Part shown: positions 3,478 through 27,917 of the stretch, in pieces
Position numbering within the stretch: position 1 is the stretch's first letter
How the letters are laid out: the number at the start of each line of letters is the position of its first letter
NCBI RefSeq assembly: GCF_008033385.1
Contig: NZ_VOGY01000007.1
Location: forward strand, 186,001-250,000
DNA: 64,000 nucleotides
Reading direction: 5' to 3'
DNA from: Algibacter pacificus
GTDB lineage: Bacteria; Bacteroidota; Bacteroidia; Flavobacteriales; Flavobacteriaceae
Position numbers and translations under genes: made by a program
The notes under the pieces: generated by a model
Databases searched by the model: none
Told to the model about the DNA's origin: nothing
What the model saw: only the letters and a program-made list of their open reading frames with translations

Positions 3478-4485
3478 TTATAAGGTAGATTTATTTTTTA
3501 CAATACTGGTTTTTACAATAATGGTTTTTACATCGGCATTAGCATGTTCCTTTTGCATTCTGGTAATTAACATTTGAGCAGCATTTACTCCAATGGCTTT
3601 GGCATGCTGACGAATAGTTGTTAGTTTTGGAATCGTATGATGCGAATCGGATTTACTAGCAAAAGCAATCACCGAAAAATCTTTAGGAACTTTTAAACCT
3701 AAATTTATAGCGGTGTTTAAAGCAATAATTCCAGACGAACTATCGGCAGCTACTACGGCATCAACCGTTCTATTTTTCTTTAAAAAAGACTTAATAACTT
3801 TTTGATGATCGTCTTTTCCTTTCTTTATTTTTAAAACTAAAGGCTCTTGCTTACCGTGTTCTAGAATGGCTTTATTGTAACCACGTTCGCGTAATTTACC
3901 AACACTTAAATCGTTTATGTTACTTACAAAAAGAATGTTTTTTCTTTTTTCCAATAAAAGACTTTTTGTGGCGTTATACATGGCATCAAAATCATCCACA
4001 ATTACCTTATCACACATCACATCATGAGCCACACGATCGAACATCACAATAGGCAAGCCTTGACTAATGGTTTTTTTAAAGTGTTCTATTTCATTTTTAA
4101 TTTGCGTTTCTTCTGCAACCGACAAAATAAAACCATCTACACTACCATTAGCAAGTAACTGTAAACTTTGTTTTTCTTTCTCTAAAGACTCGTTGGATAT
4201 ACAGGTAATAATATTGTAACCGTGTTTTGCTGCTTCCGTTTCTATACCAAAAAGGACTTTTGCTAAAATTCTATTTAAAATATTGGGAATAATAACACCA
4301 ATTGTTTTGGTTTTATTATTTTTTAAACTTAACGCGACTTTATTCGGTTTATAGTTATACAATTCAGCTAGTTCTTTTACACGTCTTACTGTTTCCTCTC
4401 CAATTTCTTCGCTATTATTTAATGCTTTTGAAACCGTAGAAATAGATACGCCTAATTCTTTTGCTAACTGTTTTAATGTAACCAT
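3478..4485 (-). CDS. LacI-family transcriptional regulator
   Basis: A 335-residue LacI/GalR-type repressor. The N-terminal helix-turn-helix (MVTLKQLAKELGVSISTVSKALN) and hinge (YKPNKVALSLKN) are complete. They are followed by a periplasmic-binding-protein-like sensor domain beginning KTIGVIIPNILNRI. The start is an ATG, preceded on the minus strand by TATTTTTG (4524-4517), an exact TAnnTTTG box. It is divergent from the AraC gene, with about 150 bp between the coding starts. Its target is unknown; the nearby AraC/TonB-receptor pair is the obvious candidate. The short GCGTTA direct repeat at 4500-4511, near its transcription start, could be an autoregulatory site but is not a clean palindrome. 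Confidence 0.88.
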   Translation of the reverse strand: MVTLKQLAKELGVSISTVSKALNNSEEIGEETVRRVKELAELYNYKPNKVALSLKNNKTKTIGVIIPNILNRILAKVLFGIETEAAKHGYNIITCISNESLEKEKQSLQLLANGSVDGFILSVAEETQIKNEIEHFKKTISQGLPIVMFDRVAHDVMCDKVIVDDFDAMYNATKSLLLEKRKNILFVSNINDLSVGKLRERGYNKAILEHGKQEPLVLKIKKGKDDHQKVIKSFLKKNRTVDAVVAADSSSGIIALNTAINLGLKVPKDFSVIAFASKSDSHHTIPKLTTIRQHAKAIGVNAAQMLITRMQKEHANADVKTIIVKTSIVKNKSTL

Positions 4486-4636
4486 ATATTTTTTTATATA
4501 ACGCTAACGCAATTTACAAAAATACACGTTGCAAATTACTATGCTAAAAATAAGTTATAATAATTTTATATTTTTACAAAATACAATTAAAATTTCCTTT
4601 TTTATTTTTAAAATATTCCCTTTAAGCCATAGGTAT

Positions 4637-5452
4637 ATGACAGAACTTACAATAAAAGATAAAACTAAGGCTCAAGAATATATAAAAATTGAATCGTTTA
4701 GAAAACATACCCGAGTAACAAAACCACATAAGCACAACAAATATTTAGAATTTGTTTATTTTAAAAAAGCTACAGGTTTTCATGTTATCGACCATTTTAA
4801 AATTGAAATTACCAATCCTATTTTTTTTATAGTTAGAAAGGAGCAAATTCATTATTGGCATTTAACTTCAGAGCCTGAAGGTTATGTTATCATTATAAAA
4901 GAAGCTTTTATCGAGCAGTGCGTAGATATTGAAATAAAGCAACAATTAGTAAAAATAAGTGCGTTTCCTTATTTAACACCAGAAGATAATAGGACGATAG
5001 AACAGTTGTTTCAATTATTAATTTCTGAAAACAAGCACAAGAAAAACAAAACCATTGTTGAAAGTTTATTGAAAGTACTGTTAAGCAAATTACTTCAAAT
5101 TGAAAACAAAAACGAACTTCCCCATCAATCCATTTACCAAGAATTTATTGGGTTATTAAGCAACCAAGAAACGTTATCTAATAGCGTAAAGTTCTATGCC
5201 GATTTACTCAATACAAGTCCGCAAAACTTAAATAAAAGTTGCCGAAATGAATGTAACAAAACAGCCTCTGAAGTATTATCCGATTTTATTTTAAGTGAAG
5301 CCAAGCGTTTGCTTTTATATACTGAAAAAAACATCTCTGAAATTGCTTACGCCCTTTCTTTTCGAGATAACTCTCATTTTACAAAATACTTTAAACGCCA
5401 TGTAGGTAAAACGCCTAGTGCCTTTAGAAGTAAAACATCATATATACCATAA
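4637..5452 (+). CDS. AraC-family transcriptional regulator
   Basis: A 271-residue regulator with an N-terminal cupin-like sensor (KPHKHNKYLEFVYF..., residues about 20-110) and a C-terminal double helix-turn-helix (SEAKRLLLYTEKNISEIAYALSF, then NSHFTKYFKRHVGKTPSAFR). I start it at the ATG at 4637 (MTELTIKDKT). Codons upstream encode a hydrophobic, A+T-rich stretch unlike the family and probably belong to the leader. It lies 85 bp before, and on the same strand as, the TonB-dependent receptor, so it probably activates that gene in response to the receptor's ligand. The ligand is unknown. Confidence 0.85.
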   Translation: MTELTIKDKTKAQEYIKIESFRKHTRVTKPHKHNKYLEFVYFKKATGFHVIDHFKIEITNPIFFIVRKEQIHYWHLTSEPEGYVIIIKEAFIEQCVDIEIKQQLVKISAFPYLTPEDNRTIEQLFQLLISENKHKKNKTIVESLLKVLLSKLLQIENKNELPHQSIYQEFIGLLSNQETLSNSVKFYADLLNTSPQNLNKSCRNECNKTASEVLSDFILSEAKRLLLYTEKNISEIAYALSFRDNSHFTKYFKRHVGKTPSAFRSKTSYIP

Positions 5453-12908: not shown

Positions 12909-14192
12909 TTATTCTACAGATTTAATATCTTTTGCGAAATAATAGATAGCTCCAATTCCTAGAGGTACAAATAATGCTATGGCAATAAATACAGGTGTAT
13001 AAGAAACTTTGGCTACTATAGGCACAATAAAATTCATGATAATAACGGAGAATACCCCAACCATTCCGCCTAATCCAGCTAACGAGCCAACATTTTTGCC
13101 ACTAAACAAATCGCTAGGTAATGTTTGTACATTACCAATTGCAAATTGGAAACCAAATAATACTACGAATACAATACCCACAAAACGCTCTGGTGTATTA
13201 CCAAAAAATATGGTTGCCACAAGCCCCGAGAACATAATAATTCCACCAATTAAAATGGTATATTTTCTACCTTTGTCTATAGAGTTAGTTTTAGATATAA
13301 TTTGGCCAGACACATATCCGCCAACAATACTACCAATAGCTGCGCCTACATAAGGTACCCAAGCAAACATGCCAACTTCTTTTACGTTGAAACCATAAAC
13401 ATCAAATAAGTAAATAGGCATCCATCCTACAAATAACCACCAAATTGGCTCTAAAAAGAAACGCCCAACAACAATAGACCAAGCTTCTCTATGTGATAAA
13501 ATTTCTCTTAAACTTAATCCTTTTGCACTTTCTTCGGCATCACGATCGGCTTGACTTTGCCCATCTAAAATATATTTCTGTTCTTCTTCTTTAATCCATG
13601 GGTGTTTTTTTGGACCTGCTTTATTAATAAGTAACCAAGGAATAATCCATAATATACCAAAAGAACCTACCACCATAAATGTTGTTCTCCATCCATAAGC
13701 TACAAAGAGCATAGCTATAAATGGTGGCGCCACTACAGATCCTATAGAAGCTCCGGCATTAAATAAACCTTGAGCAATTGCCCGTTCTTTAATTGGAAAC
13801 CATTCTGCATTACTTTTAACACCGCCAGGCCAGTTTCCTGCTTCGGACAAACCTAAAGTACTTCTAAAAAAAGCCAAACCAATAAACCCTCTTACTGTAG
13901 AGTGTAAAAACGACGATAATCCCCAAACGCCAATACTAATAACATACCCAATACGGGTGCCTACTTTATCGAATAATTTACCTGAAAATAATTGACCTAA
14001 GGCATAAGCAACCATAAAAATGTTAAGAATATAACTATAATGTTCTTTTGTTAAACCTAAAGAATGTGAAATGGAACCTTCTAGGTTTTCATTTCCCCAC
14101 ATAACGGCTAACGCACTTCTATCGATATAATTAATTACTGACGCCAAAAATATGAGTCCAATAATAAACCAACGTAATCCTTTTACTTTCAT
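12909..14192 (-). CDS. MFS transporter, hexuronate (ExuT) type
   Basis: A 427-residue major-facilitator protein with about 12 membrane helices. It resembles the anion:cation symporter branch that includes hexuronate and glucarate transporters: the start RWFIIGLIFLASVINYIDRSALAV, GLSEAGNWPGGVKSNAEWFP and GLFNAGASIGSVVAPP are characteristic. In this context it should import unsaturated uronate or DEH released in the periplasm. It lies between gntR (134 bp upstream) and the SDR gene (39 bp downstream), all on one strand. The gap to gntR holds no clear terminator. Confidence 0.9.
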   Translation of the reverse strand: MKVKGLRWFIIGLIFLASVINYIDRSALAVMWGNENLEGSISHSLGLTKEHYSYILNIFMVAYALGQLFSGKLFDKVGTRIGYVISIGVWGLSSFLHSTVRGFIGLAFFRSTLGLSEAGNWPGGVKSNAEWFPIKERAIAQGLFNAGASIGSVVAPPFIAMLFVAYGWRTTFMVVGSFGILWIIPWLLINKAGPKKHPWIKEEEQKYILDGQSQADRDAEESAKGLSLREILSHREAWSIVVGRFFLEPIWWLFVGWMPIYLFDVYGFNVKEVGMFAWVPYVGAAIGSIVGGYVSGQIISKTNSIDKGRKYTILIGGIIMFSGLVATIFFGNTPERFVGIVFVVLFGFQFAIGNVQTLPSDLFSGKNVGSLAGLGGMVGVFSVIIMNFIVPIVAKVSYTPVFIAIALFVPLGIGAIYYFAKDIKSVE

Positions 14193-14326
14193 ATAAATAC
14201 ATTTTAAAGTAAACTATATATGCTTACTAAATTGATATGGTAATTAAACTTTTTAATTATCCATTTATATACTTTTAAAGTTTTCTATTTTAACATTTAA
14301 AAACTACCTACCTTAATTACAAGTCC

Positions 14327-15028
14327 TTAAACTTTATAACAGTACTGATAGAGAATTTTAAAATGATCTTTCATTTTTTGTTTTGCCAATGCTGGATCTT
14401 GTTTCTTTATGGCTTCATAAATACCACTGTGTTCTTCAATTCCAGTAACAGCTTGGTTAATATCGCAAACATGATATTTCCCAAAATCAATAATTATTTG
14501 TGGTGTAATAGTTAACATAAACGTGTTTATAGTACTATTTCCACATGCTTTAGCAATAGCTAAATGAAAAAGTAAATCTTCTTGAACCGCATCTTCTCCG
14601 GATAAAGCTTTTTCTTTATAAGCATCTAAAGCTGCTTTTATATTTTTTAAATCTTCATCTGTTCTTCTTAAAGATGCTAACCTAACTGTTTTTAGTTCTA
14701 ATAGAATTCTGGTTTCTACTAAAGATTTAAAATCTGGCGTTTCCAGTCTTAGAATATCTTCAATCATTCCATTCATAGCGATTACGCCAATATTGGCAAC
14801 AAAAGTTCCGCTTTGAGGAATGGACTTTAATAATCCATAAAACTCCAATCTTTGGATAGCATCTCTAACATTAGATCGAGTTACTCCAAACTTTTCAGAT
14901 AAGGTTCGCTCTGCCGGTAATTTATCACCTGGCTCTAAATTTTTATAATTGATAAGATCTCTTATTTTAACAATTATTTCATTTTGTGTTTTTTGGCTAT
15001 CGCCTACTGATATTGCTCCTAATTTCAT
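14327..15028 (-). CDS. GntR/FadR-family regulator of the alginate locus
   Basis: A 233-residue regulator with a winged helix-turn-helix (KLPAERTLSEKFGVTRSNVRD, then YGLLKSIPQSGTFVA) and an all-helical FCD ligand domain (about residues 85-225) with the FHLAIAKACGN motif. FadR-type regulators bind palindromes of the TGGTnnACCA class. Such sites occur 44 bp upstream of this gene and at the PL17, susC and PL6 promoters. It is therefore the best candidate repressor of the polymer-degrading genes, released by an alginate-derived acid such as DEH or KDG. The pairing of protein and site is inferred from family knowledge and position. Confidence 0.9.
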   Translation of the reverse strand: MKLGAISVGDSQKTQNEIIVKIRDLINYKNLEPGDKLPAERTLSEKFGVTRSNVRDAIQRLEFYGLLKSIPQSGTFVANIGVIAMNGMIEDILRLETPDFKSLVETRILLELKTVRLASLRRTDEDLKNIKAALDAYKEKALSGEDAVQEDLLFHLAIAKACGNSTINTFMLTITPQIIIDFGKYHVCDINQAVTGIEEHSGIYEAIKKQDPALAKQKMKDHFKILYQYCYKV

Positions 15029-15071
15029 ATATTATGACATTTTTTTACTCATATTTTAACTAACCCTACAA

Positions 15072-15083
15072 TTGGTTAACCAA
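15072..15083. promoter_or_regulatory. GntR-type operator upstream of gntR
   Basis: TTGGTTAACCAA is a perfect 12-bp palindrome 44 bp before the gntR start. It is a single site, not tandem like the others. TAAATTTA at 15094-15101 may be the -7 box, placing the operator near the transcription start and suggesting autoregulation. Confidence 0.65.
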
Positions 15084-15411
15084 GCAATGCTGCTAAATTT
15101 ATACAAAACCACTAAAAATTTCTATCGGATTTTATTTAGCTTAAATTGCATTATATAGTAAAACTTAACAAATCATGTTATTTTAATGTATTAGCACCAC
15201 ATTATAATATTTCACTTTAGAATATAGTATTAATCTATGCATGTTAAATAACTATTGCCTTTATAATAATTTCTAAAAAACGTTCTGTTTTTTTTTGATA
15301 ACATCACTATAAATTATAAGTTATTTAACGTTAAAAAGCACCTCTATTTATTCACTATTACATTATAAATTTTACTCTTAAGTTTTCTATAAAATTGTAA
15401 CTTTGTAGAAT

Positions 15412-15512
15412 GCATGTTTTTTTATTATGAAACGTCATGTTTTAATTTACTATGCTACAAAAAGAAGTAAATTATTTAAAAAAAGGGCAGGCGGCAACCT
15501 GTCCTTTTTTGC
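15412..15512 (+). ncRNA. Candidate small RNA, about 100 nt
   Basis: TAACTTTG (15398-15405) matches TAnnTTTG exactly and predicts a start near 15412. The transcript would contain hairpin 1, TAATTTACT (15443-15451) with AGTAAATTA (15466-15474), and end in a strong terminator at 15480-15510. One stem pair of the terminator is G-U on this strand but A-C on the other, which favours rightward transcription. No TTG lies at -33. No credible reading frame fits inside. No known RNA family is recognised. Confidence 0.4.
15480..15510 (+). terminator. Intrinsic terminator of the candidate small RNA
   Basis: AAAAAGGGCAGG (15480-15491), loop CGGCAA, CCTGTCCTTTTTT (15498-15510): a 7-bp G+C-rich stem with one G-U pair, extended by A-T pairs and ending in a T-run. 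A run of seven A on the left (15478-15484) could also serve the opposite strand, with one mismatch. Confidence 0.8.
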
Positions 15513-15578
15513 TTTTTAGTCTATGGTATTTTATTAATAGTTCTCATGATATATTTAGTTTATGTTTTTTATTTAAAT

Positions 15579-15608
15579 CTGGTATACCAGATTGGTTTAC
15601 CAAATATA
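15579..15608 (-). promoter_or_regulatory. Unassigned tandem GntR-type operator with leftward promoter
   Basis: CTGGTATACCAG (15579-15590) and TTGGTTTACCAA (15592-15603) have centres 13 bp apart. CAAATATA (15601-15608) reads TATATTTG on the minus strand, an exact -7 box. The same operator and -7 layout precedes the PL17 and PL6 genes, but here no coding sequence starts downstream. The leftward transcript would meet the hairpin element within about 120 nt, or run on as a 560-nt leader of gntR. Confidence 0.65.
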
Positions 15609-15732: not shown

Positions 15733-16104
15733 TTATTTATTTCCAAAGTAAGACACTTCACCTCCACTTAAAAAATCTTCCCTTACTGGGCTAAAGGTGT
15801 CAATAAGCTCCCCTGCTTCTATGCAAACAGCACTATGCAATAAATTAGGCTCAATATAAACGCCATCACCAGCTTCTACAATTTGTTTTACGCCATCAAT
15901 TTCAAACTCAAATTTACCCGAAACAACAAAGGTAGCTTGGGTATGAAAATGTTGATGAGGAGCCCCTAATGCGCCTTTGTCAAATTTCACTCTTACCATC
16001 ATAATTTGGTTATCGTAACCTAAAAACTTTCTGGATACACCGCCGCCAAGCACTTCCCATTCCATGTCTTTTGTGATTACGTACTTTTCACTAAATCTTT
16101 TCAT
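15733..16104 (-). CDS. kdgF: KdgF, unsaturated uronate ring-opening cupin
   Basis: A 123-residue single cupin. KdgF proteins speed the conversion of 4,5-unsaturated uronate monomers, the product of exo-acting lyases, into the linear ketone (DEH for alginate). The metal-site residues appear as H50-x-H52 and Q56 in PHQHFHTQATFVVSGKFEF and H90 in EPNLLHS. The family signature LIDTFSPVREDF, including D102, is present near the C-terminus. It follows the PL17 lyase by 21 bp on the same strand, so lyase and cupin are cotranscribed and act in sequence. No signal peptide is visible, so it is probably cytoplasmic. Confidence 0.92.
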   Translation of the reverse strand: MKRFSEKYVITKDMEWEVLGGGVSRKFLGYDNQIMMVRVKFDKGALGAPHQHFHTQATFVVSGKFEFEIDGVKQIVEAGDGVYIEPNLLHSAVCIEAGELIDTFSPVREDFLSGGEVSYFGNK

Positions 16105-18413: not shown

Positions 18414-18467
18414 TTGGTTTACCAGTTTGGTTTACCAAATATAAGTATAATTATCACATAAGCCAAA
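18414..18467 (-). promoter_or_regulatory. PL17-kdgF promoter with tandem GntR-type operators
   Basis: On the minus strand TTTG (18467-18464), 20 bp, then TATATTTG (18443-18436) forms a consensus promoter with a start near 18430. TTGGTTTACCAG (18414-18425) and TTGGTTTACCAA (18427-18438) overlap the -7 box and start site, with centres 13 bp apart, a repressing geometry. Confidence 0.78.
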
Positions 18468-27429: not shown

Positions 27430-27917
27430 AAATTAAGGATTTTAATAATACAATAAAAGAAAGCCTTTATATTTCAAAAGGCTCGCTTTACATAAAACAA
27501 CAAACAATTCAACTATAAGTTAATTTTACCTAAATACATGATAAGTGAATCGGAGTATTATTTAGTTTTAGAATTAGATTTACCCTTAAAAGGCTTTTAA
27601 AACACTTTGATAAGAAGATAAGTTTAAAACAAGTAGGCATAATTAACAATATAGTTAGAAATCAAACTGGTTAACCAAACTGGTTATCCAAATATACGTA
27701 TAATTTAGCAGTATACCATTTTTTTAATCAAAAAAATATCAATCTAACATACCTAATAGTTAAAATTATACAGATTTACATAGAAAATAGAATATATAAC
27801 AACAAAAGTTTATAATCTAAATTGTTTTTAAGCTATATGTTTTCATTAAAAAATGAAAACATAAAACCCCTTAAATACATTATGAAGTTGAAAAATATGT
27901 TTAAAGTAAAGGGAAAA
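27430..27917. other. 488-bp intergenic region upstream of PL6
   Basis: It contains the PL6 leader, with a hairpin AGCCTTT (27462-27468) / AAAGGCT (27477-27483) about 33 nt before the start codon. It also holds a near-palindrome TTAAAAGGCTTTTAA (27586-27600) and the promoter with tandem operators at 27667-27696. About 27700-27917 is A+T-rich with nothing recognisable, and no clear terminator for the Wzi-like gene's neighbour was found there. Confidence 0.55.
27667..27696 (-). promoter_or_regulatory. PL6 promoter with tandem GntR-type operators
   Basis: CTGGTTAACCAA (27667-27678) and CTGGTTATCCAA (27680-27691) have centres 13 bp apart. CAAATATA (27689-27696) gives a minus-strand -7 box TATATTTG with the same overlap as at PL17. 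No TTG at -33 was found. The start would lie near 27682. Confidence 0.72.

Follow-up and report, generated by a model that had tools for sequence, protein, structure and literature searches.

Gene content of the alginate locus

The window analysed here, the whole stretch of 64,000 nucleotides from Algibacter pacificus, is part of an alginate-type locus according to the Pfam domains of the encoded proteins, with matches for a KDPG aldolase, a PfkB kinase, LacI, SDR and MFS proteins, a GntR/FCD regulator and a cupin protein. The window also encodes a protein with Alginate_lyase and Hepar_II_III_C domains (PL17-like), a Chondroitinase B protein (PL6-like) and a pair consisting of a TonB-dependent receptor and a SusD protein. 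An alginate GntR repressor was reportedly the subject of work by Dudek et al. in 2020. The gntR gene (start 15028, leftward) is separated from the cupin gene (end 15733, leftward) by a gap of 704 bp, which contains a rightward -7 box beginning at 15398, three predicted hairpins, the last being a strong terminator, and an operator placed on a leftward -7 box. All of the features named in an earlier sequence-only reading of this gap, that is, the rightward box, a hairpin, the terminator, the tandem operator and the leftward box, were found in place (Table 1).

Table 1. Features of the gntR-cupin gap and neighboring genes, in positions of the window
Feature	Position	Strand	Basis
MFS transporter gene; its leader is the predicted second partner in relatives	12909..14192	-	Pfam PF07690
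gntR-MFS intercistronic region, pairing site absent in the window	14193..14326	-	comparison with leaders of relatives
gntR, GntR and FCD domains, presumed regulator of the locus	14327..15028	-	Pfam PF00392, PF07729
Putative deletion junction, susCD missing between blocks	15387..15397	.	two-block alignment to four congeners
-7 promoter box TAACTTTG of the predicted sRNA	15398..15405	+	aligned with TAnTTTTG in 48 copies
Predicted sRNA, ~100 nt	15410..15511	+	R1 match 15398-15511, 79.2 bits, E 2.5e-12
Hairpin 2; usual loop CUUCCCUCCuAAAAG, in the window CUAUGCUACAAAAAG	15443..15474	+	alignment, minimum-energy fold
Intrinsic terminator hairpin; usual loop GG-CGUGCA-CC, in the window GG-CGGCAA-CC	15479..15510	+	alignment, fold, terminator scan
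Tandem operator TGGTATACCAGATTGGTTTACCA, putatively assigned to the GntR/FCD regulator	15580..15602	.	pattern counts, relatives
Leftward -7 box TATATTTG, orphaned promoter of the missing susC	15601..15608	-	layout in relatives
Cupin gene flanking the operator	15733..16104	-	Pfam PF07883

The tandem operator is made up of TGGTATACCA-GAT-TGGTTTACCA. The pattern TGGTNNACCA occurs 10 times in the window (0.83 expected), and the tandem pattern with up to two mismatches occurs 11 times with both strands counted (0.06 expected). The placement of the operator on a -7 box is repeated at 18415-18443, before the PL17 gene, and at 27668-27696, before the PL6 gene, in agreement with the earlier remark that the layout copies that of the two lyase genes.

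A predicted small RNA gene

The plus strand at 15398-15511 is predicted to be the gene of a small RNA (sRNA) of about 100 nt, with promoter box, hairpins and terminator. With the box placed at -12 to -5, as given in the available part of the source (PMC9723704), the start of the sRNA is predicted near 15410. Boxes of the form TANNTTTG are not above chance in the window (97 found, 110 expected), so that the weight of the -7 box comes from its conservation, and this conservation is in the 48-copy alignment partly by construction because the copies were cut at the box. The minimum-energy fold of 15408-15513 (+) includes both hairpins and has an energy of -28.8 kcal/mol (z -4.6), an equally stable fold being found in none of 200 shuffles of this segment. 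A scan for terminators between 14100 and 19100 detected seven, against 2.3 in shuffles, and the most-paired of them, with 13 pairs, is the one that ends the predicted sRNA. Of the 432 terminator pairs in the aligned copies, 431 can form on the plus strand but only 395 on the other, and the hairpin is more stable on the plus strand in 34 of the 48 copies, which upholds the choice of strand that had been made from the terminator. Of the 48 copies, 26 have U-G at one terminator pair, 18 have U-A and 4 have C-G, so that in 26 this pair can form on the sRNA strand only.

Regarding known RNA families, Rfam has none that reaches its gathering score for the element, as the sequence-only reading had already stated; at a permissive E value the best of 10 weaker matches has an E of 0.097, and all are far under the gathering scores.

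Distribution in the Flavobacteriaceae

A DNA search with a 138-base query (E <= 0.001) detected the element in 31 of 299 family genomes, that of the window among them, while a gntR homologue is present in 73 of the 299 at E <= 1e-60. For comparison 76 stretches were fetched, most of them around sRNA or gntR genes and from part of the genomes with a gntR homologue (those not fetched include G099, G165 and G185). Alignment A2, consisting of 48 sRNA copies, is the basis of covariance model R1, and the window copy is itself included in A2. Hairpin 2 with its CUUCCCUCC loop and the terminator with its GG-CGUGCA-CC loop are the most prominent elements of A2. In the consensus fold 4 of 17 pairs vary on both sides, all in the terminator, and hairpin 2 is nearly invariant; covariation therefore backs the terminator stem only.

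Model R1 finds the sRNA in 100 of 395 family genomes, representing 68 of 203 genera and usually with one match per genome, so that the proposed rightward RNA gene of about 100 nt is borne out, as a prediction, by box, terminator and conservation in relatives. In an order-level sample R1 matched 21 of 393 genomes, 20 inside the family and one, borderline, outside it. The model also confirmed 54 of 55 contigs picked by loop pattern from a collection of 84,980 species. These belong to genera including Algibacter, Hyunsoonleella, Flaviramulus, Maribacter, Flagellimonas, Aquimarina, Lutibacter, Tamlana and Robiginitalea, and Flavobacterium muglaense is also among the carriers; a Chitinophagales contig (L146) was rejected, its loop pattern not being part of any R1 match. 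The sRNA is present in all five genomes examined of the genus of the window, and no second copy was found in the window's own genome.

Several copies differ from the usual form. In three genomes with two copies, one copy has a changed promoter box (L114:10665-10773, L223, L062:12802-12915). In L136:13985-14088 and L137:13786-13891, two genomes with a 51-53% GntR, an R1 match lies directly behind gntR and its loops are quite different; these copies possibly represent a second specificity of the same sRNA family.

Proposed first partner: susC on the opposite strand

In 95 of 101 sRNA loci a susC-like gene starts on the opposite strand, 65-161 nt (median 121) from the sRNA box, the loci without an adjoining susC being the window, L122, L127, L258, L259 and L260. 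Of the 101 loci, 96 have TGGTNNACCA no more than 250 nt behind the sRNA, and 96 likewise have an operator end fused to a leftward -7 box. Pfam served to check SusC/SusD identity in the pairs of the window and of L200 and in the SusC of L065. As predicted from this arrangement, the sRNA of the relatives is antisense to the susC leader, a layout of the DonS type, and operator and leftward box are, from their position, the promoter of susC and not the sRNA's own control. The sequence-only reading had described the operator as unclaimed, which holds in the window, where susC is missing, and does not hold in the relatives, where it belongs to the leftward susC. Its statement that no gene starts behind the operator is likewise correct nearby, the next leftward gene being gntR, about 550 nt further on. 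It had also left a choice between a rightward RNA, a leftward RNA or both. The layout of the relatives resolves this in favor of a predicted rightward sRNA, the leftward transcript being the leader of the susC mRNA, whose gene is missing in the window. A stretch like GTTANACATTTAGTTTAGTT between sRNA terminator and operator is kept in many copies from closer relatives (e.g., L063:2968-3060); this stretch would open the susC leader and may contain a further element.

The segment 15029-15732 of the window aligns with four congeners in two blocks, which are 6.4-9.0 kb apart in those genomes and meet in the window near 15387. The left side of this junction corresponds to the gntR upstream region of the congeners and the right side to their sRNA-operator region, and susCD is located beside the sRNA in all four. 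On a plain reading of the alignment, the lineage of the window would have lost susCD and retained its promoter and antisense RNA. No close SusC was found elsewhere in the genome with three congener SusC queries, the best near full-length matches being 35-36%, and for two of the three queries the best match is the other SusC of the window. The sRNA-linked SusC proteins of the congeners are 40-92% alike, with some pairs at 40-41%. The sRNA unit and operator therefore seem to stay while the transporter gene is exchanged, and by the same divergence the genome of the window could hold a very divergent, relocated SusC. The GntR proteins of L201 and L202 are nearly identical, and their sRNA-linked SusC proteins only 41% alike. 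In the absence of susCD, the leftward promoter under operator control points toward gntR in the window, and the hairpin lies between the two (15028-15608).

Proposed second partner: a site between gntR and the MFS gene

A bipartite element complementary to both sRNA loops is located between gntR and the MFS gene of the relatives, kilobases from the sRNA. It consists of a hairpin with the loop UGCACG followed 22-37 nt further on by AGGAGGG, matching the two loops in the right order, and lies a median of 154 nt before the MFS start (41 leaders). The UGCACG core is inside a hairpin loop in all of 61 leaders, compared with 36% of flank shuffles, and an innermost stem of at least five pairs is present in 53 of the 61, compared with 18% in shuffles; these counts include L111, whose fetched stretch holds no sRNA, and six leaders set by hand. 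A role of this hairpin as gntR terminator was rejected, a T-rich tail being present in only 1 of 41 cases.

In a genome-wide search with the two-part pattern both alginate leaders, of susC and of MFS, were found in 11 of 14 genomes. Strays number 0-3 per genome and add up to 8, while the reversed pattern yields 10; the exceptions are G265, with a one-base variant in both leaders, G000 (the genome of the window), without a match, and G153, with one stray. A TANNTTTG box was detected between gntR and MFS in none of 42 leaders (L111 again included), shuffles giving an expected 0.11 per leader downstream of the site. Co-transcription of MFS with gntR is therefore possible.

Covariation and joint loss of loops and site

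The base after ACUUCCCU in the sRNA (x1) pairs with its partner in the site in 38 of 38 loci, as C-G or U-A, and the next three positions do so in 34.5 (x2), 28 (x3) and 23 (x4) of the 38. For x1-x4 together the score is 123.5 out of 152, whereas 20000 swaps gave 90.3 on average and 108.5 at most. The variable base of the terminator loop also matches the site in all 38 loci, with 30 C/G and 8 T/A combinations and no exception. Four loci with sites (L062, L078, L103, L123) were left out of this test, and the site position of L112 and L118 and the hairpin of L076 were reset by hand. On the regulator tree x1 changed three times and the terminator-loop base seven times, giving one and three well-supported independent pairs, respectively.

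A test free of motifs gave own scores of 1879.5 for loop 2 (swapped maximum 1645.5) and 1476.5 for loop 3 (swapped maximum 1396.5) in 88 loci, exceeding all 20000 permutations, which ignore relatedness; 3 of 91 loci were skipped and the automatic cutting of loops was unusable in some rows (e.g., L129, L202). Against shuffled leaders, loop 2 is above the 99% level in 56 of the 88 loci and the shorter loop-3 contact in only 25. Deviations from the site are U.G wobbles in 12 of 14 cases in the first six positions and in 13 of 40 over ten. Rewritten contacts that still match are present in L238 (CGTACA/TGTACG), L242 (TGTGCG/CGCACA) and L249 (CTTCTCTCTA/TAGAGAGAAG), genomes which played no part in finding the pairing rule; in L244 the site is kept and the terminator loop mismatched.

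Regarding joint presence, site and terminator loop in the first set gave the table [[42,0],[0,18]], 4 of 64 loci being dropped as they have no MFS leader to score, with motifs drawn up after this set had been inspected. With the motifs fixed beforehand, later-fetched genomes (37, of which 5 were dropped) gave [[14,4],[3,11]] (p 0.004). After inspection, 92 loci were scorable: with the site, 59 have a canonical terminator loop and 4 do not, and without the site none of 29 has one; loop 2 is kept and not kept in 61 and 2 loci with the site and in 6 and 23 without it. In this table the site calls of the 32 newer loci were made by inspection where motif and eye disagreed, by which L230, L232 and L234 gained sites that the motif misses and those of L235 and L249 were re-placed. 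The site underwent 17 changes on the regulator tree, with five independent well-supported pairs and none opposing. The complementarity of a cis-antisense RNA does not depend on its loop sequences, and the joint loss therefore points to the trans site as a reason why the loops are kept.

In L122 and L127 (genomes G102 and G236) the sRNA is a few hundred bases from gntR, has no adjoining susC and retains both loops together with the MFS site. G236 has a second copy, by its coordinates before susC, with a changed promoter box (TGTTTTTG) and one mismatched terminator pair.

Thus, as predicted from comparison of the relatives, the sRNA has two-loop complementarity to a distant message that covaries with it. 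The earlier suggestion that the RNA is linked to the alginate genes is supported.

The window copy

The MFS site is absent and the terminator loop altered in the window and in the four other congeners examined. Of the five, only the window is without susCD, and only there is the loop of hairpin 2 fully changed, that of L202 having one base changed. Against its own MFS leader the window copy scores 14.0 and 10.5 for the two loops, which is no more than expected from shuffles (99% levels 19.0 and 19.5), and the genome-wide pattern search detected no two-part site in this genome. The antisense relation to a susC 5' region is absent as well, its susC being missing. With both partners gone and both loops changed, the window copy most likely represents a decaying orphan; its stems and terminator are sound and it may therefore still be transcribed. 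The best predicted duplex of the window sRNA involves the 5' region of the gene at 3478-4485 (window 4485-4685, -), at -33.8 kcal/mol.

Alternatively, the window sRNA may act on a newly gained target, or transcription from the susC promoter may continue past the terminator into gntR and give the regulator an attenuated self-control. Consistent with such a new role are the intact stems, box and terminator, the loss of susCD that puts an operator-controlled leftward promoter upstream of gntR, and a minus-strand T run of 7 at the terminator, compared with a median of 4 in the alignment. The duplex with gene 3478-4485 also counts for it, as the one candidate among 18 gene starts; it is borderline, 1 of 60 shuffled RNAs being as good. 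The genome has no target of the usual two-loop kind and both loops have changed together, which makes a new role unlikely compared with decay of an orphan.

Proposed mechanism and alternatives

Comparison of the loci supports the predicted gene, its layout, its potential to pair at two sites, and the covariation and joint loss of loops and site, all at the level of sequence. Taken together, the sRNA is probably an antisense RNA acting both in cis and in trans that couples outer- and inner-membrane import of alginate, the window copy being an orphaned relic. The sRNA, of about 100 nt, would be made from its own box and terminator opposite the susC leader and would expose one loop in hairpin 2 (CUUCCCUCC) and one in the terminator (CGUGCA), which are able to pair with the susC leader, encoded by the same DNA, and with the gntR-MFS site in trans. 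When alginate is absent, pairing would lower expression of the importers, that is, of the MFS-SDR part of the gntR message and of susC. Because the site follows the repressor gene at a long distance from the start of MFS, pairing would more likely affect the stability of the message between the cistrons than block the start codon directly. On induction, the susC leader RNA may soak up the sRNA and thereby free the MFS message. It is conceivable, though we hold it only tentatively, that one sRNA links both import steps in this way, reaching the MFS message through a two-loop kissing complex, and that the susC leader, made only after release of the repressor, acts as a sponge that reports from the outer- to the inner-membrane importer, with the window as the end state after loss of both partners.

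A cis-antisense RNA of the DonS type that represses only the overlapping susC, the likeness of the MFS leader reflecting shared ancestry or shared protein binding, would account for the prevailing layout and for the six loci in which loop 2 is retained without an MFS site, and RNAs of this type do so in Bacteroides, as far as the available part of the report goes (PMC7366714). Pairing in cis puts no constraint on the loop sequence, yet the loops track the distant MFS site, they are intact in the G102 and G236 copies that have no adjoining susC, and nearly all deviations in the first six core positions are wobbles, as RNA pairing allows; we regard action in cis alone as improbable.

Less probable still is a protein that binds the shared TGCACG hairpin and AGGAGGG of the susC and MFS leaders, the sRNA strand being incidental. 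The motif is present in both leaders in the same sense, and GGA in loops is a classic protein target. On the other hand, the opposite strand has a conserved box and terminator, pairing within the terminator is better on the sRNA strand, and the motif changes in step at both places, which is hardly expected of a fixed protein site. A small peptide encoded by the 30-codon ORF at 15427 can be dismissed almost entirely, since this ORF extends into the terminator and visual inspection of the 48 copies shows neither its ATG nor its frame to be conserved, an observation that, for this one ORF, also enters the small-ORF comparison with type I toxin-antitoxin RNAs. The antisense RNA with partners in cis and in trans thus remains the preferred reading. 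The loci would then form an evolutionary series from an intact pair through a rewritten pair and a missing cis partner with loops kept to the absence of both partners with loops changed.

Comparison with known systems

DonS and PUL-associated antisense RNAs of Bacteroides were reportedly described by Cao et al. in 2016. PUL antisense RNAs are a known kind; the match of the two loops to a second conserved site is new here, and among titles and abstract openings, in a collection lacking most subscription papers, no account of the sRNA family or of a second target was recognised.

Regarding regulation of sugar uptake by sRNAs, control of its target by ChiX is relieved when another message soaks ChiX up. 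This decoy offers an analogy for the possible role of the susC leader as a sponge; ChiX is not known to be antisense-encoded to its target, unlike the alginate sRNA. If the sponge reading is true, induction of one transporter would be signaled to the other through RNA. In iscRSUA, the site of the iron-response RNA RyhB adjoins a hairpin and separates the repressor gene from the genes that follow, and the predicted alginate site is similarly located between a repressor gene and the following genes with a hairpin adjoining.

FopS of B. thetaiotaomicron, as described in the accessible part of its report, is present in 14 copies of about 65-70 nt with a single-stranded 5' seed followed by a terminator hairpin (PMC11697453). 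Pairing of FopS and GibS acts on susC-type messages according to the same partial source, and the alginate sRNA is likewise predicted to pair with the susC leader. It does not have their architecture of a single-stranded 5' part and one terminator hairpin: unlike FopS as documented there, it contains a further conserved hairpin with a C-rich loop and has usually one match per genome.

The closest likeness is to DonS and the PUL-associated cis-antisense RNAs of Bacteroides, which in the part of the report at hand are 78-128 nt long, divergent from and antisense to a susC homologue (PMC7366714). The alginate sRNA shares with them its predicted length of about 100 nt and its position opposite a susC homologue in a polysaccharide locus; unlike DonS, as covered there, it has a second conserved site in trans, in another operon, with predicted loop-to-loop pairing. 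Antisense RNAs opposite susC are thus known from gut Bacteroides, and the predicted second target would extend the reach of such an RNA beyond the overlapping gene; with its compensatory changes, this target is directly testable in cultured alginate degraders.
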